The notes under the pieces were generated by a model, which saw only the letters and a list, made by a program, of their open reading frames with translations, was not told the DNA's origin and did not search any database. DNA of 64,000 nt from a virus. Shown one piece after another: positions 15,977-60,541 of the stretch. The DNA lies in IMG/VR virus record IMGVR_UViG_3300046733_001096, positions 1 to 64,000 of that record. The stretch is one strand, 5' to 3'. Numbering within the stretch: the first letter of the stretch is position 1; each line of letters opens with the position of its first letter. The translations under genes were made by a program, and so were the position numbers.

Positions 15977-17272
15977 ATGTCAAACATGAAAAATTGGAAA
16001 AACATTGTCCAATCTGCCAATCTAAGAGAATCAGATTCTGAGGACGTAAATTATACAGATCATGAAGTTTCTATGGCAAAATCTCAATTGTTGAGTAGTG
16101 TAAAAAGTTCAACACGAATTGCTAAACACCTGTCAGACAAATCTGAAGATGAAGGTATTCCAGGATGGGTAGCAAGTAAATTAACAGTAGCAGAAGATTA
16201 TTTACAAGCAGTTGCAGACTACATGGATGGCGAAGAATTACAAGAAGGCTATAAAGTTATGCCTCCAATGGATCCTAAGTATGTAGAGCGTAAAGGACTA
16301 GAAGGTCCATTCACTACACTAAGCGGTAAAGTAGTTTATTATGATCCAAAGGAAGGTTCATACTACGATCCTGATACTGATATGTATATATCATATGACG
16401 AATTCCAAGACTATGATAAAGATTATTCCGGTATGAAGAATGATAATAACGAAGTTGAAGAAGGTAATGAATTTAGTGGCGCACTAGCAAATGCTAAAAA
16501 ATCTGGCAAAAAAGAATTTAACGTTGGTGGAAAAACATACAAAGTAAAAGAAGTAGTTGAGGCAGAGGCAGAAAATGATACAAAATATGGTATTGTACGC
16601 TACCCAGATACAGCAATCTCATATATCAAAAATGATGGCAATGGCTGGGAACACATCTTTGATAAGTCATACGGCTTTGAAGGTCCTGTAGATAAAGAAG
16701 ATTTACAGTACGCAAAGAAGATTGCAAAAGAAAAGATTCCATCACGTATGTTTGAAGCAACAGACACATGTGAATGCGGATGTAACTGTGGTAAAGACGT
16801 ATGTGAATCATGCGGCAAGAAACATAGTGTAAAAGAAGATACAGTTAAGTATGAAGACCACGAGGATGACCGTGTAATACTAACAGTAGAAAAAGACAAA
16901 CTACTATACAATGGTAACCCAATTCAGAATTATGACTGGAACTCATCAGCAAAGCATATTATTTCTGATAAGTTTTATGGTCGTGCTAAATCATGGAAAG
17001 AAGTACATCAGTATCTAGTAAGATTTTTAGACAACCCAAAGGGTTTGCAATCTGCTGTTCGTCAAGTATTCAATACAAATGACGAAGGTATCCAAGTAAA
17101 TGAAACTGTAATGTTTTCAGAAGCACAGTTCGATGAAGCGGCAGGCGAAAAAGATGCTTGCTATCGTAAAGTAAAATCACGTTACAAAGTATGGCCTTCA
17201 GCGTATGCATCGGGTGCATTAGTTAAGTGTCGCAAAGTTGGTGCCGCCAATTGGGGAAATTCAAAGAAATGA
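15977..17272 (+). CDS. Putative virion structural/internal protein, 431 aa
   Basis: An acidic multi-part protein. The N-terminus (KNIVQSANLRE|SDSED) contains an LxE site of the kind cut by T4-type prohead protease. Residues 60-90 have the GWVASKLTVAEDYLQAVADYMDG block. Residues about 265-285 are a Cys cluster (CECGCNCGKDVCESCGKKH) that could bind zinc. The C-terminus (KDACYRKVKSRYKVWPSAYASG...KCRKVGAANWG) is a short domain found on several marine phage virion proteins. It is expressed from a late promoter and ATGA-coupled to the GNAT gene. The exact role is unknown. Confidence 0.7.
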   Translation: MSNMKNWKNIVQSANLRESDSEDVNYTDHEVSMAKSQLLSSVKSSTRIAKHLSDKSEDEGIPGWVASKLTVAEDYLQAVADYMDGEELQEGYKVMPPMDPKYVERKGLEGPFTTLSGKVVYYDPKEGSYYDPDTDMYISYDEFQDYDKDYSGMKNDNNEVEEGNEFSGALANAKKSGKKEFNVGGKTYKVKEVVEAEAENDTKYGIVRYPDTAISYIKNDGNGWEHIFDKSYGFEGPVDKEDLQYAKKIAKEKIPSRMFEATDTCECGCNCGKDVCESCGKKHSVKEDTVKYEDHEDDRVILTVEKDKLLYNGNPIQNYDWNSSAKHIISDKFYGRAKSWKEVHQYLVRFLDNPKGLQSAVRQVFNTNDEGIQVNETVMFSEAQFDEAAGEKDACYRKVKSRYKVWPSAYASGALVKCRKVGAANWGNSKK

Positions 17273-17682
17273 AGATCCGTGAAATCATTATAGAGTCTAA
17301 AGAGATTCGTACTCAAAAGCGTGACAATGGATTTACCATTGATTTGTATGATAACGGCAAGCATGTTGGACAATATACACATGCACGTGAAGATGATATT
17401 GTTCGCAATCAAGCAGAGATTTTTCCTGAGTATCGCAACAAAGGTTACGGCACAATGCTATTACTTGCCGCAATAAAAACAGCAAACGATTTAGGTTTAG
17501 ATTTTGAAGAAGATACACAAAGCCTAACACCTGCAATGAGTAGAATATATGACGAACTAGATGATAGTGGAATGATTTATGGCGGCCGTGGTGCATGGGC
17601 TATTAGTCCAAGTGGCGAAGTTGAACTTGAAGATTTTTTAACCGAAGACTTACGTGCTTGGTTTGGCAAAGGTAAAAAGTAA
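17269..17682 (+). CDS. GNAT acetyltransferase with capsid-targeting-like N-terminus
   Basis: 137 residues from the ATG that forms ATGA with the preceding stop. The N-terminus MKIREIIIE|SKE resembles the T4 capsid-targeting peptide ending in (I/L)xE. Residues 40-115 look like GNAT motif A/B: AEIFPEYRNKGYGTMLLLAAIKTANDLGL with the acetyl-CoA loop RNKGYG. The end EDLRAWFGKGKK is repeated in the next gene. It may be packaged in the head and acetylate host proteins early in infection; this is an inference. Confidence 0.75.
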   Translation: MKIREIIIESKEIRTQKRDNGFTIDLYDNGKHVGQYTHAREDDIVRNQAEIFPEYRNKGYGTMLLLAAIKTANDLGLDFEEDTQSLTPAMSRIYDELDDSGMIYGGRGAWAISPSGEVELEDFLTEDLRAWFGKGKK

Positions 17683-18311
17683 TGCTTATTAAAGAAATTA
17701 TCACTGAAGCAAGAGCTACACTTTACCACGCTACATACAAACCGTTCCTAGAAAGTATTATGAAGAACGGGCTTGGTGGTAGTGGTGCTCAAACACAATG
17801 GGAAGATAGTAAGCCTGGTTATGTATACCTTGCTAAAGATCCTGAAGTTGCTCGTAGTCATGCTGAAGCAAACGAAGAAGTGCCAGACGAATACATTGAC
17901 GACATTGTTGTGTTGAGTATTGATACTAGTCAACTTGACCAGAACAATCTAGAAGATGATCCAAATGTGATGGATGACGACAGTACATTAGCATACAAAG
18001 GCGTTATCCCTACAAGTGCTTTTGTTATCAATGAAGACTTACGTGCATGGTTTGGCAAAGGCAAAAAAGGCGGTGCTGGCGGAGGTGGCTGGGATCGTTA
18101 CAATACCAAAGGCGAACGTATTGGAAAATGTGGTGATGCAAAGGATGGCGAAGGTAAGCCCAAGTGTTTATCTAAATCACGTGCTGCATCTCTGCGTGCA
18201 AGCGGTGGTAAGAAAGCAATTGCTAATGCAGTGAAACGTAAAAAAGCAAATGACCCAAATCCTGACCGTCGAGGAAAAGCAAAGAATGTGAATTCACATC
18301 CAAAAAAGTAG
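17682..18311 (+). CDS. ADP-ribosyltransferase-fold-like protein with capsid-targeting-like N-terminus
   Basis: 209 residues, TAATG-coupled to the GNAT gene. MLIKEIITE|ARA matches the (I/L)xE|A cleavage pattern. Residues 12-110 read TLYHATYKPFLESIMKNGL...GYVYLAKDPEVARSHA...VVLSIDTSQLDQNNLEDDPN...YKGVIP, which fits the RNA 2'-phosphotransferase/PARP-type ART fold (His in YHAT, Tyr in VYLA). Residues 115-209 hold the repeated EDLRAWFGKGKK, a Gly-rich linker and a Lys/Arg-rich DNA-binding-like tail. T4 also packages an ART, Alt. Activity is unproven. Confidence 0.65.
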   Translation: MLIKEIITEARATLYHATYKPFLESIMKNGLGGSGAQTQWEDSKPGYVYLAKDPEVARSHAEANEEVPDEYIDDIVVLSIDTSQLDQNNLEDDPNVMDDDSTLAYKGVIPTSAFVINEDLRAWFGKGKKGGAGGGGWDRYNTKGERIGKCGDAKDGEGKPKCLSKSRAASLRASGGKKAIANAVKRKKANDPNPDRRGKAKNVNSHPKK

Positions 18312-18323
18312 AGTAATTATTAA

Positions 18324-18521
18324 ATGGCAATACAAATACCAACCAATGACCATGCAGTAACATACTGCCAGAACTGCGGGGCAGGCTCGCATTGTGGTAA
18401 TAGCAAGTATACACAATTTAAAGATTATGAATGCGATGGTGGTGAAATAAGAGAAGTAATTACATGTGGCCATTGTAATTGTAAGAAATGCAAAGGCAAC
18501 TATATACAAAAAAAGGTATAG
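18324..18521 (+). CDS. Small zinc-ribbon protein, 65 aa
   Basis: Nine Cys arranged in knuckles (YCQNCGAGSHCG, then TCGHCNCKKCKGNY), so almost certainly zinc-binding. Function unknown. It lies between the ART-like gene and a 43-aa gene on the plus strand. Confidence 0.65.
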   Translation: MAIQIPTNDHAVTYCQNCGAGSHCGNSKYTQFKDYECDGGEIREVITCGHCNCKKCKGNYIQKKV

Positions 18522-18525
18522 AACT

Positions 18526-18657
18526 ATGTATGATTCAAAGTTTGTAAATGATTATGTTTTTTATTTAAAATTACACGAACAATTACGAATGTCAACTAAT
18601 GACAGAAATAAATTTTGGTCAAAATATATGAAGGATAAAGAAAATGAAAATAAATGA
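18526..18657 (+). CDS. Small hypothetical protein, 43 aa
   Basis: ATG at 18526 after an AAAAAAAGG ribosome-binding site (MYDSKFVNDYVFYLKLHEQL...); the in-frame upstream ATG lies inside the previous gene. Charged and helical, ending in KYMKDKENENK. It overlaps the next start by 14 nt. Function unknown. Confidence 0.5.
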   Translation: MYDSKFVNDYVFYLKLHEQLRMSTNDRNKFWSKYMKDKENENK

Positions 18658-19042
18658 TATTTTGAATGAGCAATCAAGTGACATTATTGAAGAAATTACA
18701 CTTGAAGAGACACAAGATTTTCATGAAGAATTTGGATATCTTGGCTATAGTGAAGATGATAGTGATTTATTTGAAGCAGAATATCAAGGGCGCACGGTTA
18801 AACTAAACAAACCTATGCGTGGCGATGTTAAAAAGTTTAAAGTATATGTAAAGAATGACAAAGGAAATGTAATCAAAGTCAACTTTGGCCACGGCGGCAC
18901 AAGTGCTAAGTCTAAAGGTGAAAAGACTATGAAAATTCGTAAGTCAAATCCTAAAGCACGTAAGAGTTTCCGTGCAAGACATAATTGTGATAATCCAGGA
19001 CCAAAAACCAAAGCACGTTATTGGTCTTGTCGTAAATGGTAA
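18644..19042 (+). CDS. Putative internal head protein with capsid-targeting-like N-terminus
   Basis: 132 residues. MKINDILNE|QSS again ends in LxE. After an acidic stretch (residues 15-46) comes a conserved basic domain: GRTVKLNKPMRGDVKKFKVYVKNDKGNVIKVNFG...KARKSFRARHNCDNPGPKTKARYWSCRKW. That block recurs in marine T4-like phage proteins and looks nucleic-acid-binding. A packaged, processed internal protein is a reasonable guess. Confidence 0.65.
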   Translation: MKINDILNEQSSDIIEEITLEETQDFHEEFGYLGYSEDDSDLFEAEYQGRTVKLNKPMRGDVKKFKVYVKNDKGNVIKVNFGHGGTSAKSKGEKTMKIRKSNPKARKSFRARHNCDNPGPKTKARYWSCRKW

Positions 19043-22806: not shown

Positions 22807-24564
22807 TTATCTAGTGCCGTTTGGTAGTAGAGAATAGTCAACCTGATAGAAACCATTTTCATGTAATGTAACTGCATTGGCATACTTTGTTTCAAGTAAT
22901 TCTTGTGCCATTACACCTTTTTGTTCTACACTATCACCAACATAGTTATAAGTATAAACACTAAGACCATCAACTGTGTTGACTAGTTTTACATTTTCTT
23001 TAAGACGGGTATCACTGAATAATTTCTTAAATGATTTACCTACAGATTTTGCTGCATCCTTGGCTGCTTTCGCTGCGGCATTTGCTGCATCTTCTGCGGC
23101 TTTTGCTGCGGCATTTGCTGCATCAGTGATTGCCTTCGATGCATCATTGATTGCATTATTACAAGTATTGATAGCATCATTACAACCTTTAATTGCTGTA
23201 TTCGCACCATTCAGCATATTTTGTGCGCTGAATGTTTTTTCTGTCCAGTTAGCAACATCATTTGCTGCATTTGTTATTGCCTTGCCTGCATCCTCAATAG
23301 CCTGACCTGTATCGTCTACCGCTTTTTGTGCACCTTTATAAGTTTGTTCCGCTTGTTTCGCCACATCGTTTGCAACTTTTTCAGCATCTTTGGCTGCTTT
23401 AATTGCTTCATCTTGTGCCTTATCAATTCCATCAGTTACGTGATCCATTGCATCTTCAATTGTTCCGCCAGCATCAAGGATTGCTTGTGCCCCATCTACT
23501 AGTGGACCAATATCAACGTCAACGTCAACATCAATATCTAATCCAACAAGTAATGCAGCCTTGCCATCAATACCGAAACTGATTGTGTCATCCTCATATG
23601 TAGCGTGTGCAGAACCTTGTGCCCCAACTTGTGCACCAACACTCACTTCAGTACTACCTGATACTTCAGCACCGCCCAAATGTGCTGATCCACTTGCTTC
23701 TGCACCTACACTTGCACCTGCAATAGCACCTGCTTCTACTGATGCACCATGTTCACCAATACTTGCACTTGCTCCCGCTTCCGCATATGCTTCAGCATGT
23801 ACATTTGCTTCGCCGTCTGCGCCCGCATCTACTGAAATATCGCCTAATGGTGTATCTAGGCCTACACTTGCATCTACTGATCCACTTGCTCCTGCTTCTG
23901 CACGTGCACTGGCGCCAACTGATGCAGCGGCAGTTGCATCACTACCATCCCAGCCTCCACTTGCATTAGCGTGTGCTTCTGCTTCTGCACTTGCATGTGC
24001 TTCTGCTTCACCTTCTGCACCAGCGTGTGCTGTTCCTAATGGACCTAAGTCTTGCTCTGCATGCGCTTCACCACTTGTGCTTGCACTTGCTTCTGCACTT
24101 GCATGTGCTTCTGCGCCTGCTGCAAAAGAACTACCATCTGATTGAAATCCTGCACTTGCGCCTGCCTCTGCACTAGCACTTGCTTGCGCACTACCGCTTG
24201 CGCCAGCCTGATCGTTTCCCACTGATCCACCAGTTTCAACTGATGCACCTGCAGCAACACTAACAGTATATTGTGGTTTTGAAACTTTTACAACATTCGC
24301 TTGTGCATTAGCAACAGCGGCAGCAGCAGCATTATAATCTGCCTCTGCTTGTTTTTCCGCTGCCTCTGCGGCAGCATGATCTGCCTCTGCTTTATCATGT
24401 GCTGCTTGTGCATCACGTTGTTGTTGTTCTGCATTTGCTTTTTTGGCTTCTGCATCTGCTTTGTCTTTTTGTGCTTGTGCCTTATCTGCCTGTGCTTGTT
24501 GCTTCTTTTTTTGTTCTTGGGCTTTTTGTTGTTCTGCCCGTTTCTTGTCGTCCTCTGCGCTCAT
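22807..24564 (-). CDS. Ala/Ser/Gly-rich fibre with C-terminal S74 intramolecular chaperone
   Basis: 585 residues of very unusual composition. Residues 1-95 are a Lys/Gln/Ala coiled coil. Residues about 95-340 are a low-complexity region alternating small residues with Ala/Ser/Glu/His (AHASAEAEAHANASGG), suggesting a repetitive beta or silk-like fold. Residues 375-510 are Ala-rich helical repeats. Ser517-Arg585 (SDTRLKENV..., KGVMAQELLE) match the Peptidase S74 domain, which trimerises fibres and cleaves itself off before the Ser. It is probably a trimeric adhesin or tail spike. A sigma70-like promoter stands upstream, odd for a structural gene. Confidence 0.75.
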   Translation of the reverse strand: MSAEDDKKRAEQQKAQEQKKKQQAQADKAQAQKDKADAEAKKANAEQQQRDAQAAHDKAEADHAAAEAAEKQAEADYNAAAAAVANAQANVVKVSKPQYTVSVAAGASVETGGSVGNDQAGASGSAQASASAEAGASAGFQSDGSSFAAGAEAHASAEASASTSGEAHAEQDLGPLGTAHAGAEGEAEAHASAEAEAHANASGGWDGSDATAAASVGASARAEAGASGSVDASVGLDTPLGDISVDAGADGEANVHAEAYAEAGASASIGEHGASVEAGAIAGASVGAEASGSAHLGGAEVSGSTEVSVGAQVGAQGSAHATYEDDTISFGIDGKAALLVGLDIDVDVDVDIGPLVDGAQAILDAGGTIEDAMDHVTDGIDKAQDEAIKAAKDAEKVANDVAKQAEQTYKGAQKAVDDTGQAIEDAGKAITNAANDVANWTEKTFSAQNMLNGANTAIKGCNDAINTCNNAINDASKAITDAANAAAKAAEDAANAAAKAAKDAAKSVGKSFKKLFSDTRLKENVKLVNTVDGLSVYTYNYVGDSVEQKGVMAQELLETKYANAVTLHENGFYQVDYSLLPNGTR

Positions 24565-29459: not shown

Positions 29460-29876
29460 TTATCTAATTGCAATAGTTTTAGGTTGTTTTTCTTCAGGAA
29501 CTTTTCGTTCAAGAGATACAAATAATAATCCATCTTCCATAGTTGCATCAATTACTTCAACATAATCAGCAAGTTTCCATTCTCTGGTGAATGCACGATT
29601 TGCAATTCCACGATGGATGTATTCACGGCCCTCTTGATCAATTTCAGGTTTTGAACCGGAAATAGTTAGTAGACCTTCTTTAACCGTGATTTCAATATCA
29701 CCACGACTAAAACCTGCTAGTGCTAATGTAATTTGATATTTGTCTTCATCAATAGACTCTACATTATATGGTGGATAACCAGTGTTATCCAAACGATTGA
29801 AATCATTTAGTAGTCTATCAAAACCCAATACTGAGCGATGAAAATCTGGTAAGTTTAATGTTGTTACTCTTGTCAT
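29460..29876 (-). CDS. Small heat-shock protein, Hsp20/IbpA type
   Basis: 138 residues from the ATG with an AAAGGAG site. The alpha-crystallin domain has PPYNVESIDEDKYQITLALAGFSRGDIEITVKEGLLTISG, then GIANRAFTREWKLADYVEV and ATMEDGLLFVSLERKVPEEKQPKTIAI, as in IbpA/HspA of alphaproteobacteria. It holds unfolded proteins for refolding or degradation. Marine T4-like phages often carry Hsp20; here it lies beside ClpS and close to ClpX. Confidence 0.92.
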   Translation of the reverse strand: MTRVTTLNLPDFHRSVLGFDRLLNDFNRLDNTGYPPYNVESIDEDKYQITLALAGFSRGDIEITVKEGLLTISGSKPEIDQEGREYIHRGIANRAFTREWKLADYVEVIDATMEDGLLFVSLERKVPEEKQPKTIAIR

Positions 29877-29943
29877 TTTGTTTCTCCTTTTAATAAGCAA
29901 GAATATAGAATCCCAATAGGCGATTCCAGTTAAACAGATGTTA

Positions 29944-30480
29944 CTACTCTTTAGTAACACCTGAAAGTTTTTGTAGGCGGCGGATGAAACCTTCATCATC
30001 ACGTTCACCTTCAAAAACAAATGTGTTTGACTTTTTGTTGTTTCGCAACTTAGTATACATTTCGCCTGCTTTGCCAGGACTTAATGTACCTACGTCAAAC
30101 ATTTCGTCACCAGATTTATCATAGACTTTTGCGCCCTTATTATCTTTAATAAGTACACCGTCTTGATTATAACTTGCACCAAGTTCAATCATCTGTTGAC
30201 GAAACTTTTCGTCTGTTCCCTCTGGAGCAATAACGAAAAGTGAATCTTCTGCCACATGTACTTCTTCTGGAGTGCCTTGATTTTCAATCCAATAGCCGTC
30301 CACAAAAAAGAAGCCATAACCTAACTTACGAATAGTTGCCGCAAGTTGCTTGTTACGCCTTACATTCTCTTCACGGTCATACTCGCCACGAAATGCTGTT
30401 AAAAGAGCAATAGGTCTATCTGACTTTGCGTGTTGCCAAATACGTGATAACGATGCCTCTTGTACATGTGTCTGTGTCAT
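29944..30480 (-). CDS. Conserved phage protein, 178 aa
   Basis: Alpha/beta protein: residues 20-60 (SDRPIALLTAFRGEYDREENVRRNKQLAATIRKLGYGFFFVDGYW) look like a nucleotide- or sugar-binding fold also seen in other tailed phages, followed by ENQGTPEEVHVAEDSLFVIAP. No catalytic motif that I can name. Overlapping early (30498-30526) and late (30507-30514) promoter elements lie upstream. Confidence 0.65.
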   Translation of the reverse strand: MTQTHVQEASLSRIWQHAKSDRPIALLTAFRGEYDREENVRRNKQLAATIRKLGYGFFFVDGYWIENQGTPEEVHVAEDSLFVIAPEGTDEKFRQQMIELGASYNQDGVLIKDNKGAKVYDKSGDEMFDVGTLSPGKAGEMYTKLRNNKKSNTFVFEGERDDEGFIRRLQKLSGVTKE

Positions 30481-30497
30481 TTTATCTCCCAGTAATT

Positions 30498-30526
30498 AAT
30501 ATAATGTATTTATTTAATAATGTCAA
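30498..30526 (-). promoter_or_regulatory. Early promoter with a late element inside its spacer
   Basis: Minus-strand TTGACA (30521-30526), 17 bp, TATATT (30498-30503). The spacer contains AATAAATAC (late-type) in the same direction, so the gene at 30480 could be expressed in both phases. Confidence 0.65.
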
Positions 30527-30528
30527 TA

Positions 30529-30765
30529 CTATACACCAATTTTTTCTGAAAAAAGTTTAATTTCTTTTGCAGGACCAATATTACAAGGTAAATCACCATG
30601 TTCATCAATGTAATGCTGTATTACTGCTTTATACCATAATTGGCTATTATGATGTGCTTGTTTGTTGAATTTAGCAATGCCACCTGAAGAACCATCCATG
30701 GTAAGTAACGCTCTGGATGATTCTTTCTGCAATGTTCTTAAATCTAGTGTATCTAAATCTATCAT
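30529..30765 (-). CDS. Hypothetical protein, 78 aa
   Basis: MIDLDTLDLRTLQKESSRALLTMDG..., a mostly helical protein with an HHNSQLWYKAVIQHYIDEHGDLPC middle. ATGA-coupled to the bS21 gene, so it belongs to the translation operon. No family recognised. Confidence 0.65.
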   Translation of the reverse strand: MIDLDTLDLRTLQKESSRALLTMDGSSGGIAKFNKQAHHNSQLWYKAVIQHYIDEHGDLPCNIGPAKEIKLFSEKIGV

Positions 30766-31016
30766 ATATTATCTTGTTGGCGTTTCATTTTTTGCCAACG
30801 CTTGCGTCCTGCATCTTTTGCTTTACGTTTGATTTCACTTGGCTTTACGAATTCTTTTCTAGTTCTAATTTCTTGTACTAGTCCCTCTTCGGTGCATTTC
30901 TTTTTAAATCTACGAAATGCCTTTTCAAAGTTTCCATTTTTTACTTCTACTGTCATGCCAGACTTCGCATATCTGTCAGCGTCATTTCCTTTTACATAGT
31001 GATTATTTTTAGTCAT
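30762..31016 (-). CDS. rpsU: Ribosomal protein bS21
   Basis: 84 residues (E. coli 71). It matches bS21: TVEVKNGNFEKAFRRFKKKCTEEGLVQEIRTRKEFVKPSEIKRKAKDAGRKRWQKM, a helical Arg/Lys-rich protein that sits near the 3' end of 16S rRNA. Phage bS21 homologues, including in SAR11 phages, are known and are thought to replace host bS21 and favour phage mRNAs. The first 20 residues are extra relative to the family. It overlaps the end of IF3 by 8 nt. Confidence 0.92.
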   Translation of the reverse strand: MTKNNHYVKGNDADRYAKSGMTVEVKNGNFEKAFRRFKKKCTEEGLVQEIRTRKEFVKPSEIKRKAKDAGRKRWQKMKRQQDNI

Positions 31017-31533
31017 TTTTTTGTATTAAACCTGTAATTCTATTGCCATTTAATTTTAATGGCTGTTCATATTTCCAGTTGGCCAGACTGTTAGAAATCA
31101 TTTCTATAAAATATGCCAGTACATCTTGCGACTTGGCATTTTCACGGCCTTTCATTTGTATTGTTATTTTAACTTTAGAACCATTATCAATAAACTTTTG
31201 TGCTTGGCGCATCTTTATTTGCAAGTCATGGATACCAATGCCGGGTCTAAATTTAACTTCTTTAACTTCAATAGCATTAGCCCTAGCAGATTTTGCTTGT
31301 GCCTTTTGTCGCTTTTTAAGTTCGTAGTTATATTTATTAACACTTACAACACGTGCCACTGGAGGGTTTGCATCTGGAACAATAAGAACCAAGTCAAGGT
31401 TTTCATTTATTGCAATGTGTTGGGCATCAGCATTTGACATTACGCCAAGTGCCTCGCCATTATTTCCAATGATGCGTAACTCGCTACTAGTAATATGCTC
31501 ATTGATTATTAATGTGGATTTGTTTTTATCCAT
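31009..31533 (-). CDS. infC: Translation initiation factor IF-3
   Basis: 174 residues (E. coli 180), full length. N-domain: LIINEHITSSELRIIGNNGEALGVMSNADAQHIA, DLVLIVPDANPPVARVV. Linker: NKYNYELKKRQKAQAK. C-domain: VKEVKFRPGIGIHDLQIKMRQAQKFIDNGSKVKITIQMKGRENAKSQ. IF3 keeps ribosomal subunits apart and checks start-codon/initiator pairing. With bS21 next to it, and many TTG/GTG starts here, it may tune initiation toward phage messages. It starts directly after clpX. Confidence 0.93.
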   Translation of the reverse strand: MDKNKSTLIINEHITSSELRIIGNNGEALGVMSNADAQHIAINENLDLVLIVPDANPPVARVVSVNKYNYELKKRQKAQAKSARANAIEVKEVKFRPGIGIHDLQIKMRQAQKFIDNGSKVKITIQMKGRENAKSQDVLAYFIEMISNSLANWKYEQPLKLNGNRITGLIQKND

Positions 31534-32790
31534 TTATAATTTTTGTTTAACCTTCGCTTGTTCATCGAATACCAATATTGGTTCTTCATTTCCTAAAATA
31601 AATTCATCTGTAATATGTACAGAACGTAGTCCTTGATTTGCCAATTTTGGCAATTTGAATTGTATTTGTAAAAGTGATTTTTCAATTACACTTCTCAATC
31701 CTCGAGCGCCCGTTTCATCTGTTGTTGCTTTTCTCGCAATCTGGTTTAGCGCCGAATCTGAAATGATTAATTCTACACCATCAAGTTTAAACAATTTTTC
31801 AAACTGTGCAACAATACTATTTTTAGGCTCAGTTAATACTTGTACTAACTGATTTTCAGTGAGAGCATCAAGGCCAACAATAATTGGAAATCTTCCCATA
31901 AATTCTGGGATGACTCCATATTTTATTACATCCTGTGCTTCTACTTGCTCACGGATATTTATCTTATTTGTCGATTTATCATACACAACAGCACCAAAAC
32001 CAATACCTGCATTGGATGTTATTCTACGTTCAATAACTTTATCAATGCCAACAAATGCGCCACCAACTACAAATAGAATTTTACTTGTATCAACTTCAAT
32101 CATATCAGTGCCTGGGTGCTTACGTCCGCCCCCAGGCGGAACACGAACAACTGAGCCTTCTACAATTTTAAGTAGTGCTTGTTGAACACCTTCGCCACTA
32201 ACATCTTTTGTGATTGAAATATTTTCGCCTTTTTTCGCTTTCTTATCAATTTCATCAATATATATAATACCACACTCGGCTTTTTTAACATCAAAATCTG
32301 CTGCCATAAGCAATTTCTGTACTACATTTTCTACATCGTCGCCAACATATCCACTTTCAGTAAGTGATGTTGCATCAATTTGTGCAAATGGCACATCTAA
32401 AAATTTTGCAACTGTTTTAGCAAGTAATGTTTTACCAGTACCAGATGGTCCCATAACCATTACATTGGATTTATCCAATTCAACGCCATCAGAATCATCA
32501 GCGTTTATACGTTTGTAATGATTATATACTGCCACACTAAGGACTTCTTTAGCTTCGTCTTGTCCAATAATGTGCGCATCTAAGAATTCTTTAATATCTT
32601 CCGGTCCAGGAAGAGAACTCATATCCGTTTCGCTTGTAGTGGCAAACTTTTCTTTTGAGTCATGTATGATTTCATAGCATAAGTCAACACACTCATTGCA
32701 AATAAACTGATTTGGTCCAGCAATGAGTGTTTTAACTATATCCTTTTCTTTGTTACAAAATGAACAAGTATAATCTTTAGTATCAGTCAA
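31534..32790 (-). CDS. clpX: ClpX unfoldase
   Basis: 418 residues (E. coli 424). The N-terminal C4 zinc domain has Cys9/12/31/34. AAA+ core: Walker A GPSGTGKT (114-121), Walker B IIYIDE (175-180), pore-1 loop GYVG (147-150), RKHPGTDMIEVDTSKILFVVGGAF, GRFPIIV, and the ClpP-docking IGF tripeptide at 263-265. So it should dock on host ClpP and unfold ssrA-tagged proteins; no clpP is in the window. The start is TTG with AGGTGAT upstream. It is followed directly by infC and rpsU. Confidence 0.95.
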   Translation of the reverse strand: MTDTKDYTCSFCNKEKDIVKTLIAGPNQFICNECVDLCYEIIHDSKEKFATTSETDMSSLPGPEDIKEFLDAHIIGQDEAKEVLSVAVYNHYKRINADDSDGVELDKSNVMVMGPSGTGKTLLAKTVAKFLDVPFAQIDATSLTESGYVGDDVENVVQKLLMAADFDVKKAECGIIYIDEIDKKAKKGENISITKDVSGEGVQQALLKIVEGSVVRVPPGGGRKHPGTDMIEVDTSKILFVVGGAFVGIDKVIERRITSNAGIGFGAVVYDKSTNKINIREQVEAQDVIKYGVIPEFMGRFPIIVGLDALTENQLVQVLTEPKNSIVAQFEKLFKLDGVELIISDSALNQIARKATTDETGARGLRSVIEKSLLQIQFKLPKLANQGLRSVHITDEFILGNEEPILVFDEQAKVKQKL

Positions 32791-36008: not shown

Positions 36009-36683
36009 CTATCCATGTTTTTTACTTTGAACTTTCATTTTTCTTGTTTGCCATGGCACTGTATCTTCAAACATATTCACAACTTCGTCACCTTGATATG
36101 CTTCGATAAGTTTCCACCAAGGCACAATTAACAAGTGTGATTTGAGAATCATACGTTCATTTTCTGTATCATTTACAATACCATGATAGCGATTTACATT
36201 TAAAAAGTTAGGATTAAAATATTCATGTGTTTCTAATTTTTCACCGACACTATGCGTTCCGTCTTCTTGTTCCAAATGTTCATAAAAACTTATTTCTGTT
36301 TTGCCGCGCAATGGGGTATTGAATGCACTTAGTGCTCTAAAGTGATGTGCAGTATGCGGCTCTAAATTACCGCCAGGAGGCATCCAAATAAATGTAAAAC
36401 GCATACAGTGTTTAATTTCATCCCAATTCAATGTTACACCGCAGTTATTTGCAATGTTTGTAATCCTTTGAAATATTTCATTCCAAATTTGAATGTTACA
36501 GTCATAGCAGACATTGTAAATTTTTTGCTTGGTGCTATCCATTCCTACCGTACCGTGATCGCCAAATTTGTCTTTAATTTTTTGGTCAAAGAAGTTATTG
36601 AGTTCGTCTTGATCTGCTAAAAATCCATCATAACCTTTGGTTTCAGCAAACCTATCCTCATATCTATATCTTAGTTCGTTCAC
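36009..36683 (-). CDS. Fe(II)/2OG oxygenase-like, aspartyl-hydroxylase type
   Basis: 224 residues from a GTG start that forms GTGA with the previous stop and has GGAGGA 5 nt upstream (a TTG 18 nt earlier is less likely). Metal-site candidates: LEPHTAHHFRALSAFNTPL and NRYHGIVND...RMILKSHLLI. Probably a protein or peptide hydroxylase. Last gene of the 36-42 kb operon. Confidence 0.7.
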   Translation of the reverse strand: MNELRYRYEDRFAETKGYDGFLADQDELNNFFDQKIKDKFGDHGTVGMDSTKQKIYNVCYDCNIQIWNEIFQRITNIANNCGVTLNWDEIKHCMRFTFIWMPPGGNLEPHTAHHFRALSAFNTPLRGKTEISFYEHLEQEDGTHSVGEKLETHEYFNPNFLNVNRYHGIVNDTENERMILKSHLLIVPWWKLIEAYQGDEVVNMFEDTVPWQTRKMKVQSKKHG

Positions 36684-37525
36684 TTTATTCCTCCATAACA
36701 ATGTTCATAATCAAAACTTAATCTATACAAATAACGATCACCTTCTACTGCATTACGTTTATGAATACTATGAAACTGATCCATAAAAATAAAATCGCCA
36801 GGCTGCCAATCGTCATGGTGCCAAATATATTTGTCTTGGAAAATATGTGCCATTAGTTTGTCAATAATAAGTTCTTTATCCAACTTCTCTTCTGGTTTGT
36901 CTCTTAACCACATCTCTCTAATATAATGAAATGTAAAATATAATCCTTCGTCCCCATCGTATGGATGCGTATATACCAAAGGCTTTGTTACGCCATATTT
37001 AAAATCTCTTGTGGCACCTTGAAACATTTTAAGTTCTTTATCGTCTTTGTCTAAGTCATAGAATGTTCCATTTTCAAATTTAAATGTACAATCTATTTGC
37101 TTATAGAAATTTTTATCTTCATCACATAAATCTTTGTATGCTTGTCTTGTGTCACAAAAACTAGTTACACTATTTTCGCCTGGTCTGACACAGTAAAGAG
37201 CCACACAGCATTCTTTACCACTTTTCCTGCCATTGCCATTACTATGCCAGTCTAATTCTTTGTCTGCAAAGATACCAATCTTGTCGCCATCTTTGCGTTC
37301 GTTTGTTACTCTAAACAAACCAGGATAATCTGGGTGCATAAAAAATTGATTTGGTTTAAGTACATTGCCAATTAATTCACATACTCTTAGTATACCAGAT
37401 TCATCTAGATTTTGATTTCTAACGAGTACTACATTATCTTTTACAATGTTTTTACCCCAATCTCTAATTTCTGAGTCACTCATTGTGTTAAAGTCTACGT
37501 TATATTGCACAGCATCCATTTGCAT
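36680..37525 (-). CDS. TauD/TfdA-family dioxygenase
   Basis: 281 residues from the ATG preceded by AGGAGAAGAG. TauD-like: LVRNQNLDESGILRVCELIG, FRVTNERKD, and ELDWHSNGNG (His100), then DFIFMDQFHSIHKR. The usual HxD is His-Ser-Asn, so the metal site may have a changed ligand. The leader is almost the same as that of the gene at 38618 (both begin MQM), suggesting copying of the translation-start region. Confidence 0.75.
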   Translation of the reverse strand: MQMDAVQYNVDFNTMSDSEIRDWGKNIVKDNVVLVRNQNLDESGILRVCELIGNVLKPNQFFMHPDYPGLFRVTNERKDGDKIGIFADKELDWHSNGNGRKSGKECCVALYCVRPGENSVTSFCDTRQAYKDLCDEDKNFYKQIDCTFKFENGTFYDLDKDDKELKMFQGATRDFKYGVTKPLVYTHPYDGDEGLYFTFHYIREMWLRDKPEEKLDKELIIDKLMAHIFQDKYIWHHDDWQPGDFIFMDQFHSIHKRNAVEGDRYLYRLSFDYEHCYGGIK

Positions 37526-37548
37526 TAATTCTCTTCTCCTCAATTTAT

Positions 37549-38043
37549 TTATGATAATATTATACTAACTGCATTTTCTACTGTGATATACTCTGTAGTG
37601 GATATATTAGGATACTTTTGTAATATGCGTTCAGTTCCTACATATCCAAAATGAGTATATTTTAAATTTAAAGGTGTGTCTAGATTAATCAAATCATTGT
37701 GCAATACACGTAATGATTTTTTTTGTATTTGATATTCTAGTAAATGTTCGTAGTTTTTTAATATAGTTTCATCTTCTGCTACATTACTACCAACATTAAT
37801 TATTGTTTTGTTAGTATCTTTAAATGCATGGAACAAATCTAATAACATATAAGTTTGTCCAAACCCATCATGTGCATTGTTTATAAAAACATCAACGTCA
37901 TTGCATTGTTTAATAATACGTTTTCTGTCAATACGGTTATTAATGTCGTAGCTAGTACTTTTACTAAATCCAATAAAGTTTACAACTGATTCAGATATAG
38001 CTTTTCCTATACCCGATGTATGTCCTGTTATTGCGTATTTCAT
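37549..38043 (-). CDS. Short-chain dehydrogenase/reductase
   Basis: 164 residues, shorter than the usual 250. NAD(P) motif TGHTSGIG (residues 7-14), VFINNAHD for NNAG, and YQIQK as the YxxxK catalytic pair. It would reduce or oxidise a small-molecule alcohol/ketone, so the operon probably modifies a metabolite or nucleotide. ATGA-coupled to the upstream oxygenase. Confidence 0.75.
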   Translation of the reverse strand: MKYAITGHTSGIGKAISESVVNFIGFSKSTSYDINNRIDRKRIIKQCNDVDVFINNAHDGFGQTYMLLDLFHAFKDTNKTIINVGSNVAEDETILKNYEHLLEYQIQKKSLRVLHNDLINLDTPLNLKYTHFGYVGTERILQKYPNISTTEYITVENAVSIILS

Positions 38044-38618
38044 CTATCACCTAATATTGTAACTACTAAATGTAATCTTTCATCCGTACTACCGTTAAAT
38101 GCAGTATGAGGAACAACTGTATTTGTCCAATACCATTGATTTTGCTTTAGATGTTTACTTTCGTTTTCGATTACCATATAACACCCGTCTTGTGTTTTTA
38201 TTGGATAATGTAATCTTGGAGTGTTATCGTTATGCCATGTTAAACAAGTCTTTGGTCTAGAATTCATTATTCGTATTCTACCAACTTTGTATTTTTTAGT
38301 TATACTATTGTATACATCTTCGAACAATGAATCTTTAAATCCTGTACAAAGTACTTCAAAACTATCATCTTTCAAAGGAACTTCTCTACGAGGTACTATA
38401 ATTTTTCCGTGTTCAGTTGTGTAAGAGTTGTCCCAATCTAAAAATAAACTTCCTCTTCCTGTTAGGCAATTTGACGGATCGTCTTTGGTTGCATTTAAAC
38501 AAATTTGATCTTTGTCATTTTTATACCACCAAATCTTTTTTTCGTTGAGTAGTTTTAAAAACTCTGTATGCAAATCATATACAGGAAGATCGTTAAGTTC
38601 GACAAAATTCATTTGCAT
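38040..38618 (-). CDS. Fe(II)/2OG oxygenase-like protein A
   Basis: 192 residues. The motif CLTWHNDNTPRLHYPIKT gives HxD (His-Asn-Asp), followed by TNTVVPHTAFNGSTDERLHLVV with the distal His and the Arg that binds 2OG. Aspartyl/asparaginyl hydroxylase-like. Start MQMNF behind AGGAGAAAAGAAC. Confidence 0.78.
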   Translation of the reverse strand: MQMNFVELNDLPVYDLHTEFLKLLNEKKIWWYKNDKDQICLNATKDDPSNCLTGRGSLFLDWDNSYTTEHGKIIVPRREVPLKDDSFEVLCTGFKDSLFEDVYNSITKKYKVGRIRIMNSRPKTCLTWHNDNTPRLHYPIKTQDGCYMVIENESKHLKQNQWYWTNTVVPHTAFNGSTDERLHLVVTILGDR

Positions 38619-39349
38619 TAGTTCTTTTCTCCTACTAGTATTTTATTTGGAGTTTCACGGTCACTGTTAACATAATCTCTCCAAAGTGTTGCGTTTTCAA
38701 GTTCTTGTTCATATTCTTCTTGTGTATATTTGCCAATACTAAAGTTACCATCTAAGTCCCAAACGTCTGCTACAAAATGCCATCTATCAGTATTACTTCT
38801 ATTTAAAACATTGTGGTATGGATGTACATATGCAAGATAACTATTTCCCTCTTCAAGTATGTAACTTTCGTTCCCATGAATAAAATCAGTGCCTGCATCT
38901 GTTATAATAGGAATATGGAATCTATAAAAGTTACCATCAGTATGCTTTTTAATTTCTCCACTTGGATGAATATATGATAGTCTTGCTCTTCTAGGATTCA
39001 TATTTTTTTCATGTAGAAAATCTAAGATTTCTTTAAAATATCCAGTACATGCACTTGTTTCTATACTATAGTCTAACATGTGATAAATTTTATGTTGCCT
39101 AGCATAGTCTAAATTAAAATATACTTTCGGATCAGGATCTGTCATATCTTGTTCATCATATCGCGGATATTGTATTTCTACATTAAAATTGAATCCGCTT
39201 TGCAAAGAACCGTCTTGACTAGATAATGCAATACCATGTAATCCACCATCTCTTTGTTCGTTAACATTGTTATACTCTAATATACGATACAGTTCAGACT
39301 TTAATCTATCTTTGTTAAACTTCCAATCATTTTTTACCACATGAGTCAA
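38618..39349 (-). CDS. Fe(II)/2OG oxygenase-like protein B
   Basis: 243 residues. IHPSGEIKKHTDGNFYRFHIPI contains HTD, then SYILEEGNSYLAYVHPYHNVLNRSNTDRWHFVADVWD with the second His and Arg. Same family type as A and C but diverged. TTG start overlapping the previous stop as TTGA. Confidence 0.78.
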   Translation of the reverse strand: MTHVVKNDWKFNKDRLKSELYRILEYNNVNEQRDGGLHGIALSSQDGSLQSGFNFNVEIQYPRYDEQDMTDPDPKVYFNLDYARQHKIYHMLDYSIETSACTGYFKEILDFLHEKNMNPRRARLSYIHPSGEIKKHTDGNFYRFHIPIITDAGTDFIHGNESYILEEGNSYLAYVHPYHNVLNRSNTDRWHFVADVWDLDGNFSIGKYTQEEYEQELENATLWRDYVNSDRETPNKILVGEKN

Positions 39350-40005
39350 ATCAGCAACCTTTCTTTGTTTGGTAAATTATCATAATCCACTCCAAATATT
39401 AAAACGATTCTAGTGTTATCGCTACTGTTTGTTACTCTATGTAACCAACCTGTATTAACAAAATAGCTTTTACCTCTTTGCATATCCAAACTAATTTCTT
39501 CGGTTTTTGTTTTCCATTGGAACAAACTTCCGGCTGTATTAACAGGTATTTGTACTCTACACAACACACTTGTATCAGTATCTATATGATAGTTTAGTTC
39601 ATTGCCTCCATGCATAACACTTATACGTGCTCTATAGGGTGCGTTAAATTTATCTTTAAGGTATTGTTGTATAGCAGTTGTTTTTAAATCATCTCTCCAA
39701 CTGTTATAATTTTTTTCATCAATTTCACTGTCCGCATTGTTATCTAGTTGCTGCAATAGTATTTGACTGTATGTTTCACTAGCAGTAAATGCACTTTTAA
39801 CATCACAATGTTGTGATATCTGATAATTGTCACCGCCCAAATCATTACCTGTGTAGTTATTGGCAATTTCCAATATCTCATCTAACACTGATTCGGGAAC
39901 GTTATCTGTTACTTGTCCGTGAGTTTGCATCTGATGCCTACGTGGTCCATTTTTACCACTTACTCTGCTTCTTCTTGTATCGTGTATAAGGCAATTATCG
40001 GTCAT
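39346..40005 (-). CDS. Fe(II)/2OG oxygenase-like protein C
   Basis: 219 residues. MHGGNELNYHIDTDTSVLCRVQIPVN contains HID, then MQRGKSYFVNTGWLHRVTNSSDNTRIVLIFGVD. The N-terminal 35 residues (RRSRVSGKNGPRRHQMQTHGQ) are basic and lack the fold. Overlaps the possible GNAT gene by 11 nt. Confidence 0.78.
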   Translation of the reverse strand: MTDNCLIHDTRRSRVSGKNGPRRHQMQTHGQVTDNVPESVLDEILEIANNYTGNDLGGDNYQISQHCDVKSAFTASETYSQILLQQLDNNADSEIDEKNYNSWRDDLKTTAIQQYLKDKFNAPYRARISVMHGGNELNYHIDTDTSVLCRVQIPVNTAGSLFQWKTKTEEISLDMQRGKSYFVNTGWLHRVTNSSDNTRIVLIFGVDYDNLPNKERLLI

Positions 40006-40585
40006 AATTTTCCTTCCATTTTTGAATACTTATACTTTTTAAAGGCAGGCTATAATTATTAGAACAAATAACTTGCCAACTTGCAGGATCATCGTCCTGT
40101 GGATAAGTTTGATACAGTCCTTCTAAGACTTTCCATTCATTTTGTTTCTTATATTTATTGTTTAGTTTTTCGGCTAACAATGCCAACGTTCCTCGTCTAC
40201 GTTGAAACTCCACACTGAAAAATAATCTGGTAATATTATTTTGTTTTGCCCATTCTAATTGTGGATCTAACATTAGTGTTGCTGGTGTTTCAGTATCTCT
40301 TTCATAATTCATATTTTTACGTCTGTATTGTGGATTGTAATATGTTCTAGTTAGTAATCTTGCACAACCTTCTGGAAACATATGAGTTTGTACACAACTC
40401 ATAGCAATCATTTCATCATTATCTTCTACTAGGAAAGTCCATAGTGGATATTTTTTATATCGGTTTGGTATGCTCCATGCTAGATTTGGATTGAACCAAT
40501 CTTTATTTCTATCATTATTTGCATAAAATTTCTTACAGTAATGTAAGAATTCCAACTCATAATTTTCTAATGTAAGTATTTTCAT
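39995..40585 (-). CDS. Possible GNAT-fold acetyltransferase
   Basis: 196 residues. The layout (PLWTFLVEDNDEMIAMSCVQTHMFPEGCARLLTRTYYNPQYRRKN..., LEWAKQNNITRLFFSV) is like GNAT strands beta2-beta5, but no clear R/Q-x-x-G-x-G/A loop is seen. It sits between two oxygenase genes, so it probably acts on the same pathway. Confidence 0.5.
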   Translation of the reverse strand: MKILTLENYELEFLHYCKKFYANNDRNKDWFNPNLAWSIPNRYKKYPLWTFLVEDNDEMIAMSCVQTHMFPEGCARLLTRTYYNPQYRRKNMNYERDTETPATLMLDPQLEWAKQNNITRLFFSVEFQRRRGTLALLAEKLNNKYKKQNEWKVLEGLYQTYPQDDDPASWQVICSNNYSLPLKSISIQKWKENYDR

Positions 40586-41241
40586 TTTTTAACAAACGCA
40601 GGATCAAGCCATTCGTTTAATGTATCAGGTCTAGAAACTACTACAATATAATCTGCGTTGGCTTTAAGTTTGCTATATGCGTCAGTCAACTGGCCTTTCC
40701 ATGGAGCACCTACGCAGAGTGTAATCTTTTCTTGTGGATCAGGATCAATACTGTGAGCATGACTTCCATCTAATACGTAACTATCATAGTTTCCTGGCAT
40801 GTAAACTTTGTTTAGTTTTTTATCTAAAAAATATAGTTTATTAATAGCACCATTTAGCACTAGTCTATATTTGTCCTGCAATGTACCAATTTCTTCTTTT
40901 GTACTGTCTAAATGTGTATGTAATCCTGTATTAGGAGCAGTTCGTAGAATTGTAACTCTACCCGGAGGCTCCATCCATGGAAATATTTTTTCTTCTAATA
41001 CATGTTGCATAACAGGACATTGATTGCCGGCTGACGTATAATTAAATTCACCGTTTGTAGTATTATGATTGGGGTCCCTACCACCTAGTCTACCACCACC
41101 GTTCCATATTGCAATCATTCTGCAACCTCTGAATTCATTGTAGTGGTGCACATCATCAGAAAGTGCAAGCACTTCATCAAGCATTGCTTGTTTCTCTTCT
41201 TTAGTTACACCTATGTCAACTGCACCAAACGTAAATTTCAT
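40582..41241 (-). CDS. Fe(II)/2OG oxygenase-like protein D
   Basis: 219 residues. RVTILRTAPNTGLHTHLDSTKEEIG gives HLD, and YVLDGSHAHSIDPDPQEKITLCVGAP gives the distal His. Resembles Asp/Asn hydroxylase or prolyl hydroxylase domains. ATGA overlap with the possible GNAT gene. Confidence 0.72.
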   Translation of the reverse strand: MKFTFGAVDIGVTKEEKQAMLDEVLALSDDVHHYNEFRGCRMIAIWNGGGRLGGRDPNHNTTNGEFNYTSAGNQCPVMQHVLEEKIFPWMEPPGRVTILRTAPNTGLHTHLDSTKEEIGTLQDKYRLVLNGAINKLYFLDKKLNKVYMPGNYDSYVLDGSHAHSIDPDPQEKITLCVGAPWKGQLTDAYSKLKANADYIVVVSRPDTLNEWLDPAFVKK

Positions 41242-42830: not shown

Positions 42831-43181
42831 TTATTTTCCTTTGTTTACGAAATTGTAAAATTGTTGCGCTGCTTCAAGAATTTGTTCTGTTCCTGGAACT
42901 TCTGGCATTTCTACCTTTGTCACAACTTCATCGTGCTCTTTTCGAACAGATGTTTCAAACATGCCATATTTTGCATAATAGTCTTGCCACATTTGTGATT
43001 GTGCCATTTCTAATACTTGAGTACGAATTTCATAACCATTTTTATTAAAAGTTACTTTAGGAAGTGAAGGAGGTGTCATTTTCTGAAATGCTTCTGTAAA
43101 TGCCTCTGGTTTCATTCCTGTGTTTTTGTATAAATCGCTGAATTTTTCAGCCATTTCTGTCATTTGTTTAATATCGAACAT
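42831..43181 (-). CDS. Hypothetical helical protein, 116 aa
   Basis: An all-helical protein (FDIKQMTEMAEKFSDLYKNTG..., VLEMAQSQMWQDYYAKYGMF). The amphipathic helices recall phasin-like proteins only weakly. It starts directly after the tmRNA and ends at a terminator, so tmRNA and this gene may share a transcript. Function unknown. Confidence 0.6.
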   Translation of the reverse strand: MFDIKQMTEMAEKFSDLYKNTGMKPEAFTEAFQKMTPPSLPKVTFNKNGYEIRTQVLEMAQSQMWQDYYAKYGMFETSVRKEHDEVVTKVEMPEVPGTEQILEAAQQFYNFVNKGK

Positions 43182-43204
43182 ATTGTTTTCCTTTGTGTTT
43201 ATGT

Positions 43205-43480: not shown

Positions 43481-43485
43481 CATTC

Positions 43486-43516
43486 TATTTATAACATATT
43501 TTAATAGCGTTGTCAA
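43486..43516 (-). promoter_or_regulatory. tmRNA promoter, sigma70 plus late element
   Basis: Minus-strand TTGACA (43511-43516), 17 bp, TATAAA (43488-43493); the same -10 reads TATAAATA (43486-43493), an exact T4 late promoter, so tmRNA could be made early and late. Confidence 0.8.
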
Positions 43517-52961: not shown

Positions 52962-52990
52962 ATTATACACGATTCTAAAGTATTTGTCAA
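52962..52990 (-). promoter_or_regulatory. Exact consensus sigma70 promoter
   Basis: Minus-strand TTGACA (52985-52990), 17 bp, TATAAT (52962-52967), overlapping the stop of the kinase gene. Confidence 0.85.
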
Positions 52991-53664
52991 CTTCTTTGAT
53001 CTTTAATCCAGTTCTTGGCCTGTGGCATAGATGGGGACTTAACTAAAAATTTATCAATTGCTCTATCAACTTCTAAGAAATTTGATTTACGTTCTGGATC
53101 TTCTAGGCCACCAGAGTTATCAACAATATGAAAATTTCCTGCGCCGAATAACTGCTGAAACTTCATAAGATTCTGCTGTACTGCTTGCCACATCTTAGTC
53201 ACTTGTTGTCTTGGTAAACTTCTAGGACGATTTTCATTGCGCTCTTGTGCGACATCTTCACTTGTATTAACAAATAACATCATTGTTTCATAGCCAAGTT
53301 CTTTTAATTGTTCATTTGCTTTTTGAACTTTTGCTACATCTTTGCCAGTGCCATCAATAATAAGTCCTAGACGGCCTTCGATATGCAATTGTTGTTTATT
53401 CTTTGTAATCTGTTTTGCACGATTACGAATTTCTTGTCCTTCATCAGAATAGATATCATCTGGAGTCAATTCTTTTCCTGCTTTATCCATCATATATTCA
53501 TAAATGTCATCTGAATTTACTGTTCTGAGACCAGTTCCTTTGAGCATCTTATTAGCAACAAAACTTTTGCCACTGCCAGGGCCGCCTGCCAGAAATACGG
53601 CTTTGAAAATATGAGGATCATTCACACCCTCTTCAATTGATTGTAGGATTTCATTGACACGCAT
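52987..53664 (-). CDS. P-loop kinase (zeta-toxin-like) with capsid-targeting-like N-terminus
   Basis: 225 residues. MRVNEILQSIE|EG at the N-terminus has the same shape as the packaged-protein leader. Walker A AGGPGSGKS (residues 26-34), VNSDDIYEYMM, GLIIDGTGKD, LFVNTSEDVAQERNENRPRSLP. Similar kinases occur in marine T4-like phages. If injected it may phosphorylate a nucleotide-sugar or RNA in the new host. GATAAATAC late promoter at 53694-53701. Confidence 0.75.
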   Translation of the reverse strand: MRVNEILQSIEEGVNDPHIFKAVFLAGGPGSGKSFVANKMLKGTGLRTVNSDDIYEYMMDKAGKELTPDDIYSDEGQEIRNRAKQITKNKQQLHIEGRLGLIIDGTGKDVAKVQKANEQLKELGYETMMLFVNTSEDVAQERNENRPRSLPRQQVTKMWQAVQQNLMKFQQLFGAGNFHIVDNSGGLEDPERKSNFLEVDRAIDKFLVKSPSMPQAKNWIKDQRS

Positions 53665-59738: not shown

Positions 59739-60221
59739 TTACAAATGTTTTTTTAATTCTTCAATCATAGTTACTTTTGTATGTCTACGATCTAGTTGAA
59801 CGCCTAGATTTTCATCTGCCCATACATCTATTTCCTTCTTAGTCATAGATGTAAAATCAGGAGTAGTTTTTTCTTTTTTATCATTTTTAGTTTCTACTAC
59901 TATACTTGGTGCGGCCATGTCTACTGTAATTGGAGCAACTGTTTCAACTACTGCATCTTTTACTTTTTCTTCAACTGCAACTTGAATTTGTTCTTTTTCA
60001 AGTTTTTCCGCTACAGATGCTGCCTGTGACTCTGCAATTAGTGCAGCATTTTCTCTTGCTGCTTTATTTGCAAGTGTCTCTCTGCGTCTTTCTGCGACTT
60101 CTGGAGATAACGTTTTCAAAACTTCTTCAGTTGTATTATTCTCAATAGATTTAAGTAAATCCTTCATTTCTTTTTTAGAAACTATTTTCGGTTCTTTACC
60201 GCCTTTAATAATAAGTGGCAT
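59739..60221 (-). CDS. Coiled-coil protein with HeH/SAP-like C-terminus
   Basis: 160 residues. Residues 15-95 are charged and helical with Ala-rich coils. The end (MTKKEIDVWADENLGVQLDRRHTKVTMIEELKKHL) is a helix-extended-helix fold like HeH/LEM or SAP domains, which often bind DNA ends. Its location beside head/core genes suggests it is packaged or acts in DNA packaging. Confidence 0.65.
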   Translation of the reverse strand: MPLIIKGGKEPKIVSKKEMKDLLKSIENNTTEEVLKTLSPEVAERRRETLANKAARENAALIAESQAASVAEKLEKEQIQVAVEEKVKDAVVETVAPITVDMAAPSIVVETKNDKKEKTTPDFTSMTKKEIDVWADENLGVQLDRRHTKVTMIEELKKHL

Positions 60222-60541
60222 TATTTGATTCTCCTTGATGTTGCTTTAGTAGCGAGTTTTTTTACAGTATCTCTAGAATCATCATCGTTATTTGATGTGG
60301 GGACAAACTCTAGATCAATACTATTTAAACTTGCATTACTAACATATTTACTATTTGATAACATATCAATTAAACTTTCAGCAGTCATTGAATGACCTAA
60401 ATCATTTAATTCACGCACCATTATATCAGTTCCAATGGTATTAATATCATTCGCTTTTAAGCGAACAAGATATACATTTATATCATTAATAAGTTGTGAC
60501 TTATAATTTTCATTTTCGCTTAAAAGTGTTGAAATTTTCAT
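60221..60541 (-). CDS. Putative internal head protein, 106 aa
   Basis: MKISTLLSE|NEN has the capsid-targeting shape. Then NDINVYLVRLKANDINTIGTDIMVRELNDLGHSMTAESLIDML, a helical domain. The tail KKLATKATSRRIK is basic. One-nt overlap with the coiled-coil gene. Function unknown. Confidence 0.6.
   Translation of the reverse strand: MKISTLLSENENYKSQLINDINVYLVRLKANDINTIGTDIMVRELNDLGHSMTAESLIDMLSNSKYVSNASLNSIDLEFVPTSNNDDDSRDTVKKLATKATSRRIK

Follow-up and report, generated by a model that had tools for sequence, protein, structure and literature searches.

Five genes in a 64,000-nucleotide stretch of DNA from a marine T4-like phage (hereafter the window, bases 1-64000 of the 78,946-base IMG/VR record IMGVR_UViG_3300046733_001096) encode proteins that begin with the same type of short peptide. 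We consider it very likely that these N-termini are capsid-targeting sequences (CTS) of the T4 type, cut by a prohead protease, and that they sit on cargo which related phages encode as polyvalent proteins. The enzymes that carry the leaders would probably be packed into the head and injected with the DNA, as had been put forward in an original prediction made from the letters of the window alone. The N-termini quoted in that prediction were all confirmed on the sequence, in the genes at 17269, 17682, 18644, 52987-53664(-) and 60221-60541(-), and the leaders on this contig are real, although the kinase and 60221 proteins do not start at the positions given there, being encoded on the minus strand with start codons at 53664 and 60541.

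With a slash marking the predicted cut, the leaders read MKIREIIIE/S in the GNAT gene (17269), MLIKEIITE/A in the ADP-ribosyltransferase (ART)-like gene (17682), MKINDILNE/Q in the 18644 gene, MRVNEILQSIEE/G in the kinase gene and MKISTLLSE/N in the 60221 gene. The start codons of the GNAT and ART-like genes overlap the upstream gene (ATGA, TAATG), and a purine-rich or GGAG/AAGGA-type stretch lies 5' of the start in the other three. The leaders stand at the very N-terminus and are 9, 9, 9, 12 and 9 residues long, against about 10 in a CTS. In T4, such sequences are said to have been described on the internal proteins IPI-III and on Alt by Mullaney and Black in 1996. Mutation of the CTS of IPIII has assigned positions 4 and 7 to targeting and positions 8 and 10 to processing (PMC9026906). 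All four have counterparts here, in a frame that is one residue shorter: I or V at position 3 and I or L at position 6 match the targeting positions, and the ends IIE, ITE, LNE, IEE and LSE form the I/L-x-E processing site. This one type of leader is found on unrelated proteins, namely GNAT, ART-fold, kinase, peptidoglycan (PG)-binding/transglycosylase-like and zincin-like proteins. Of two long colinear relatives, one of 155 kb (G001) and one of 146 kb (G002), the former has two extra leader genes: a PG-binding protein that starts with MKINDIIVE, and a product containing a HETIH motif that starts with MKINEIIIQE.

The enzyme labels of the original prediction have stood up. The GNAT gene matches PF00583 above the cut-off (E 8.5e-6), and its ortholog in G001 has the leader MKISEIISE. 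The kinase gene matches both PF06414 (Zeta_toxin, E 2.6e-14) and PF13671 (AAA_33, E 2.8e-14). The ART-like gene had no Pfam match, and its structure model resembles the KptA/Tpt1 2'-phosphotransferases of the ART superfamily (Foldseek E 1.2e-4, probability 1.00, template-modelling score 0.53), so that, at the level of the modelled fold, its product is an ART-fold protein and a putative ADP-ribosyltransferase or 2'-phosphotransferase.

The predicted cut site is kept when the domain behind it is moved to a new context. The kinase domain was compared in 53 distinct contexts. In more than half of them it follows an N-terminal leader of about 9-17 residues, and in others it is embedded 77 to 969 residues deep in the protein. 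Glutamate precedes GVNDP in 53/53 and V, L, I, M or F is found at -3 in 53/53, whereas positions -2 and -4 to -12 vary. A second such element is the tag DLRxWFG, which is common to the GNAT gene, at its end, and the ART-fold gene, after the ART domain. All 26 tag contexts have E at -1, and 25 of them have L, I or V at -3. In G002 a leader sits directly on the tag (MKITEIINE/DLRAWFGKGKK), and in G001 a single protein of 338 residues combines the GNAT with a further domain and the tag, LNE/DLRAWFGKGKK occurring twice in it.

The genes in the window encode a single domain or a domain plus tag, unlike their multidomain relatives. Four of these (L052-L055) are proteins of 1,029 to 1,215 residues that contain the ART and kinase domains of the window, some with an additional metallopeptidase-like HELVH, transglycosylase-like or DGHHRW segment (ParB-like, by eye). 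At least two unrelated effector-type domains per chain are found in L038 and L052-L056, as in polyvalent proteins. Among 129 cargo open reading frames (ORFs), the motif hydrophobic-x-Glu (hxE) adjoins 70 of the 95 domain starts that are supported by at least four partners, compared with 20.4 under the null model (z 13, with a few families dominating the sites and a test window set after a first pass). The motifs hxD, hxK, hxQ, hxN, hxS, hxT, hxR, hxA and hxG were not enriched at the cargo domain starts. These leaders, sites and architectures can be read directly in the sequences, as can an S77 protease and a gp23 site in a syntenic relative. This relative, G014, shares orthologs of the kinase gene, the 60221 gene and many others with the window, and has a full T4-type head module with portal (gp20), S77 prohead protease, gp22 and gp23; S77 is also present in G016. 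The gp23 of G014 has the LxE site ALNE/S, and in an alignment of gp23 an LxE lies near the T4 cleavage site in 10/10 phages (T4 has FLTE/A, Melnitz FLSE and S-CREM2 LLTE; this clade has ALNE/S, YLTE/S or YLAE/A), a conservation that speaks for the predicted cut specificity.

Published virion proteomes of cyanophages support the idea that such leaders sit on virion enzymes, albeit in phages other than the one studied here. In the T4-like cyanophage S-CREM2, 52 proteins were detected in virions, for which the authors cannot exclude contamination during CsCl purification (Table 3, PMC10665884). According to the genome, the virion-detected proteins include an S-adenosylmethionine (SAM) hydrolase that starts with MKDFDSFLEE, an APH/ChoK-like kinase with MKRFDAFLTE, a cytidylyltransferase with MKNFSSFLTE and two proteins of unassigned function with MKDLHSFLTE and MQTFSMFFSE. 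Leaders that match the fixed regular expression described below are found on 3/52 detected proteins versus 1/164 of the other genes (P 0.044). Another virion-detected protein, annotated as Cas9 nuclease (L390, 7704-10313, minus strand), has the leader-like core RFASFMAE/A around residue 25, not at its very start. The text of the S-CREM2 paper does not contain "targeting", "N-terminal" or "internal protein", and "prohead" occurs only in the table entry of the protease (PMC10665884). For phage S-SCSM1, NMNAT was detected in the virions (PMC9602691), and the cytidylyltransferase homolog in its genome, apparently this NMNAT, starts with MKSFLQFLKE/A. Both cyanophages have S77.

Wherever the comparison with the T4 CTS could be put to the test, in the four positions, in the S77 protease and gp23 site of the lineage, in the kinase and tag contexts and in the virion enzymes of S-CREM2, the outcome agreed with it. 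For the phage in the window we infer docking, packaging, cleavage and injection. During head assembly, the amphipathic leader of 9-12 residues would dock the protein to the prohead core, after which the S77 prohead protease would cut behind hydrophobic-x-Glu. The freed GNAT, ART-fold enzyme, Zeta-like kinase and small basic protein would then stay in the head and enter the host with the DNA, and the products of the 60221 and 15977 genes may be part of the same cargo. Because the polyvalent proteins of the relatives, which reach about 1,200 residues, have the same [LIVM]xE sites at their domain junctions, the cargo can take either of two forms, a single polyprotein for cutting inside the head or a set of individual ORFs that all bring a leader of their own. 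We give even chances to a broader hypothesis, according to which the prohead protease of a broad marine T4-like group matures effector polyproteins by cutting LxE junctions in the head, and genomes switch freely between polyproteins and single ORFs that regain a leader. If so, the sequence of any such phage would reveal, through the junction signature, which proteins it injects.

Several observations weigh against the CTS reading. Neither S77 nor gp23, nor any other prohead protease or capsid gene, was found on the contig, in G001 or in G002, and their presence is deduced from G014 and G016. The terminase is nevertheless of the T4 type, and missing sequence is the apparent reason for the lack of head genes because the syntenic G014 carries them. 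Glutamate before GVNDP could in part be a conserved residue of the kinase domain itself. The window of the domain boundary test was set after a noisier first pass on raw BLAST starts, in which hxE ranked highest with a z of only 2.9, followed by hxG (2.5) and hxI (2.4). Likewise, the stronger result for S-CREM2, 5/52 versus 2/164 (Fisher P 0.0097), comes from a relaxed regular expression that was picked after those N-termini had been seen.

An alternative that we regard as unlikely is that the N-termini serve as helices for packaging into, or docking to, some other part of the virion, such as the baseplate or the tail hub, and are left uncut by the prohead protease. It gains some credit from the kinase and 60221 genes, which are located within a baseplate/tail-type gene cluster, and from several virion-detected leader proteins of S-CREM2 that have not been located to the head. 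However, the pattern ends in hydrophobic-x-E, like the T4 gp21 sites and the gp23 sites of the clade, and a dock at the N-terminus does not account for the recurrence of the same site inside long proteins.

It is more improbable still that the leaders have arisen by chance, in that AT-rich phage genes often start with MK-I-N/S-E/D-I-L and the five were chosen by eye. A search with the regular expression M-x(1,2)-h-x-polar-h-h-...-[hydrophobic]-x-E, which was fixed before the counts in control genomes but composed with the five leaders known, matched 5/136 genes called on the contig, exactly the five that had been named. Shuffling within the leaders gave a mean of 0.76 matches, and 0/500 shuffles reached five. 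With a rate of 0.98% at internal methionines, the significance for the contig alone is moderate (binomial P 0.012). Because the expression was composed with the five known, the independent checks are T4, G006, G016 and phages without S77. In T4 it matches 8/281 genes (P 3e-6), among them IPII, IPIII, Alt and gp24, which were identified from their sequences and are all known gp21 substrates. Enrichment is also seen in the contigs G006 (P 3e-4) and G016 (P 2e-3), and is absent from the phages without an S77 match: SPO1 (1/210), N4 (0/75) and the pelagiphage HTVC010P (0/71). The lack of enrichment in S-PM2, Syn9 and HTVC008M counts on the side of chance, and Melnitz is not enriched either; the leaders of these four phages, where seen, differ slightly (MKxFxxFLxE). 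Chance would also have to explain why the kinase site is kept in every context while the surrounding residues change. Away from the matched internal-protein genes, T4 gene 61.1 (NC_000866, 18966-19130(-)) encodes a hypothetical protein of 54 residues with the CTS-like start MKTFKEFIKE.

The least probable alternative, that the leader proteins are ordinary late intracellular enzymes and the pattern merely reflects the helix with which each fold begins, fits the 60221 protein but hardly the unrelated folds of GNAT, ART, kinase and transglycosylase, which have one common leader type, nor the ART protein, whose residues 1-10 are disordered in the model and replaced in polyprotein homologs by unrelated sequence ending in hxE.

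Assignment to the CTS class is not equally firm for all genes (Table 1). The 60221 protein has the quoted N-terminus and matches the expression, but it is the weakest case because the predicted leader is part of one continuous modelled helix, residues 3-30, and it may be an ordinary helical protein; the model gave no fold match, and in the orthologs the N-terminus evolves together with the body. The 15977 gene is a sixth candidate with a looser match, and its leader-like start is kept in G001. For the 18644 product, a leader protein of 650 residues in phage Melnitz ends with the same domain (tblastn). The name DUF6321 for a KVWPSAYASG domain was set aside; it came from the annotation of a neighbor, and Pfam did not confirm it.

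Table 1. Leader genes, leaders and tags in the window, with positions counted from its first base and a slash at predicted cuts.
Feature	Position	Strand	Basis
Gene at the start of the cassette, 431 aa, with a looser leader, MSNMKNWKNIVQSANLRE/S, and a C-terminal KVKSRYKVWPSAYASG domain	15977..17272	+	PHROG_727 and 38880
GNAT acetyltransferase gene, 137 aa, end FLTE/DLRAWFGKGKK	17269..17682	+	PF00583
GNAT leader MKIREIIIE	17269..17295	+	Regular expression match; predicted cut after E9
GNAT C-terminal tag DLRAWFGKGKK behind FLTE (predicted second site)	17647..17679	+	26 tag contexts
ART-fold gene, 209 aa: ART domain, VINE/DLRAWFGKGKKGGAGGGG tag, basic tail	17682..18311	+	Foldseek, alignment
ART-fold gene leader MLIKEIITE	17682..17708	+	Residues 1-10 with predicted local distance difference test (pLDDT) <50
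Tag domain that follows the VINE site: DLRAWFGKGKK... and basic tail	18036..18311	+	Tag-context comparison
132-aa protein, small basic C-terminal domain (RARHNCDNPGPKTKARYWSC)	18644..19042	+	PHROG_7595; tblastn to Melnitz
Leader MKINDILNE of the 18644 gene	18644..18670	+	Regular expression; kept in G001, G002
P-loop kinase (Zeta_toxin/AAA_33) gene, 225 aa	52987..53664	-	Pfam
Kinase leader MRVNEILQSIEE, predicted cut before GVNDPHIFKA	53629..53664	-	53 contexts
106-aa protein, function not assigned, within structural gene cluster	60221..60541	-	Orthologs in G001, G002, G006, G014
Leader-like N-terminus MKISTLLSE (weak case)	60515..60541	-	Regular expression; modelled as helix 3-30

Two earlier ideas about the head genes were abandoned. 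Doubts that the phage is T4-like, which stemmed from first searches without S77 and gp23, were dropped after the head module of G014 was found. A ClpP-like protease, whose gene lies beyond the window at record position 73958-74644 (L001:10959-11645(-)), matches "head maturation protease" families (PHROG_94, PHROG_1827) and was considered as a replacement head protease, but G014 holds both the S77 head module and a ClpP-like gene. Together with a ClpX-like protein recognized by eye (31534-32790(-)) and a large ATP-dependent protease in G002 (PHROG_4871, L184:2144-4387(-)), it makes up a phage-encoded Clp-type set alongside a gene for transfer-messenger RNA (tmRNA; 43172-43512(-), tag ANANYAPEMALAA), which is also present in Melnitz. 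Elsewhere in the window, Hsp20-like, bS21-like and IF3-like proteins were recognized by eye at 29460-31533(-), the first two with homologs in Melnitz. Adjacent genes at 36009-41241(-), several of them 2OG-Fe(II) oxygenase-like by eye, form a stretch whose content differs in G001 and G002, and an alanine-rich protein of 585 residues (22807-24564(-)) has an end that by eye resembles an S74-type intramolecular chaperone.

Most genes of marine phages are without a known role, and many of them could be sorted at once if injected proteins were recognizable by such a leader and cut site. The acetyltransferase, the KptA-like ART and the Zeta-like kinase are concrete candidates for a role in the first minutes of infection, and a testable processing route is offered for polyvalent proteins. 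The function of the CTS and its four key positions, the detection of ip genes of T-even phages by their signal sequence (PMC12373910) and the polyvalent proteins are already known, and a review has suggested that T4-like phages may use the CTS to load various proteins (PMC9026906). In searches confined to an open-access library, we found no paper that links the CTS and polyvalent proteins through prohead-protease sites.

The leaders resemble the T4 CTS in their roughly 10 N-terminal residues, hydrophobic targeting positions, I/L-x-E end, occurrence on unrelated proteins and, as seen in G014 and G016, an S77 protease in the lineage. They differ from those of T4 in length, most having one residue fewer or two more, and in being rich in I/L rather than Y/F, and are found on a GNAT, a KptA-like ART and a Zeta-like kinase, with sites also inside multidomain proteins. 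The same leader type occurs on genes for the virion SAM hydrolase, kinase and NMNAT/cytidylyltransferase of S-CREM2 (PMC10665884) and S-SCSM1 (PMC9602691). Head proteins of SPN3US and phiKZ likewise have N-terminal propeptides, which a relative of gp21 cleaves behind x-x-E, but these propeptides are mostly longer than 100 residues and the sites are A/S-x-E (PMC5694885). Polyvalent proteins share with the cargo described here the multidomain ART, GNAT, ParB-like and metallopeptidase-type content and the predicted packaging and injection (Iyer et al., 2017, PMC5512222). Their processing has been ascribed to their own metallopeptidase domains (PMC5512222), whereas the junctions found here have sites of the prohead-protease type, and the window encodes its cargo as single ORFs that have leaders.

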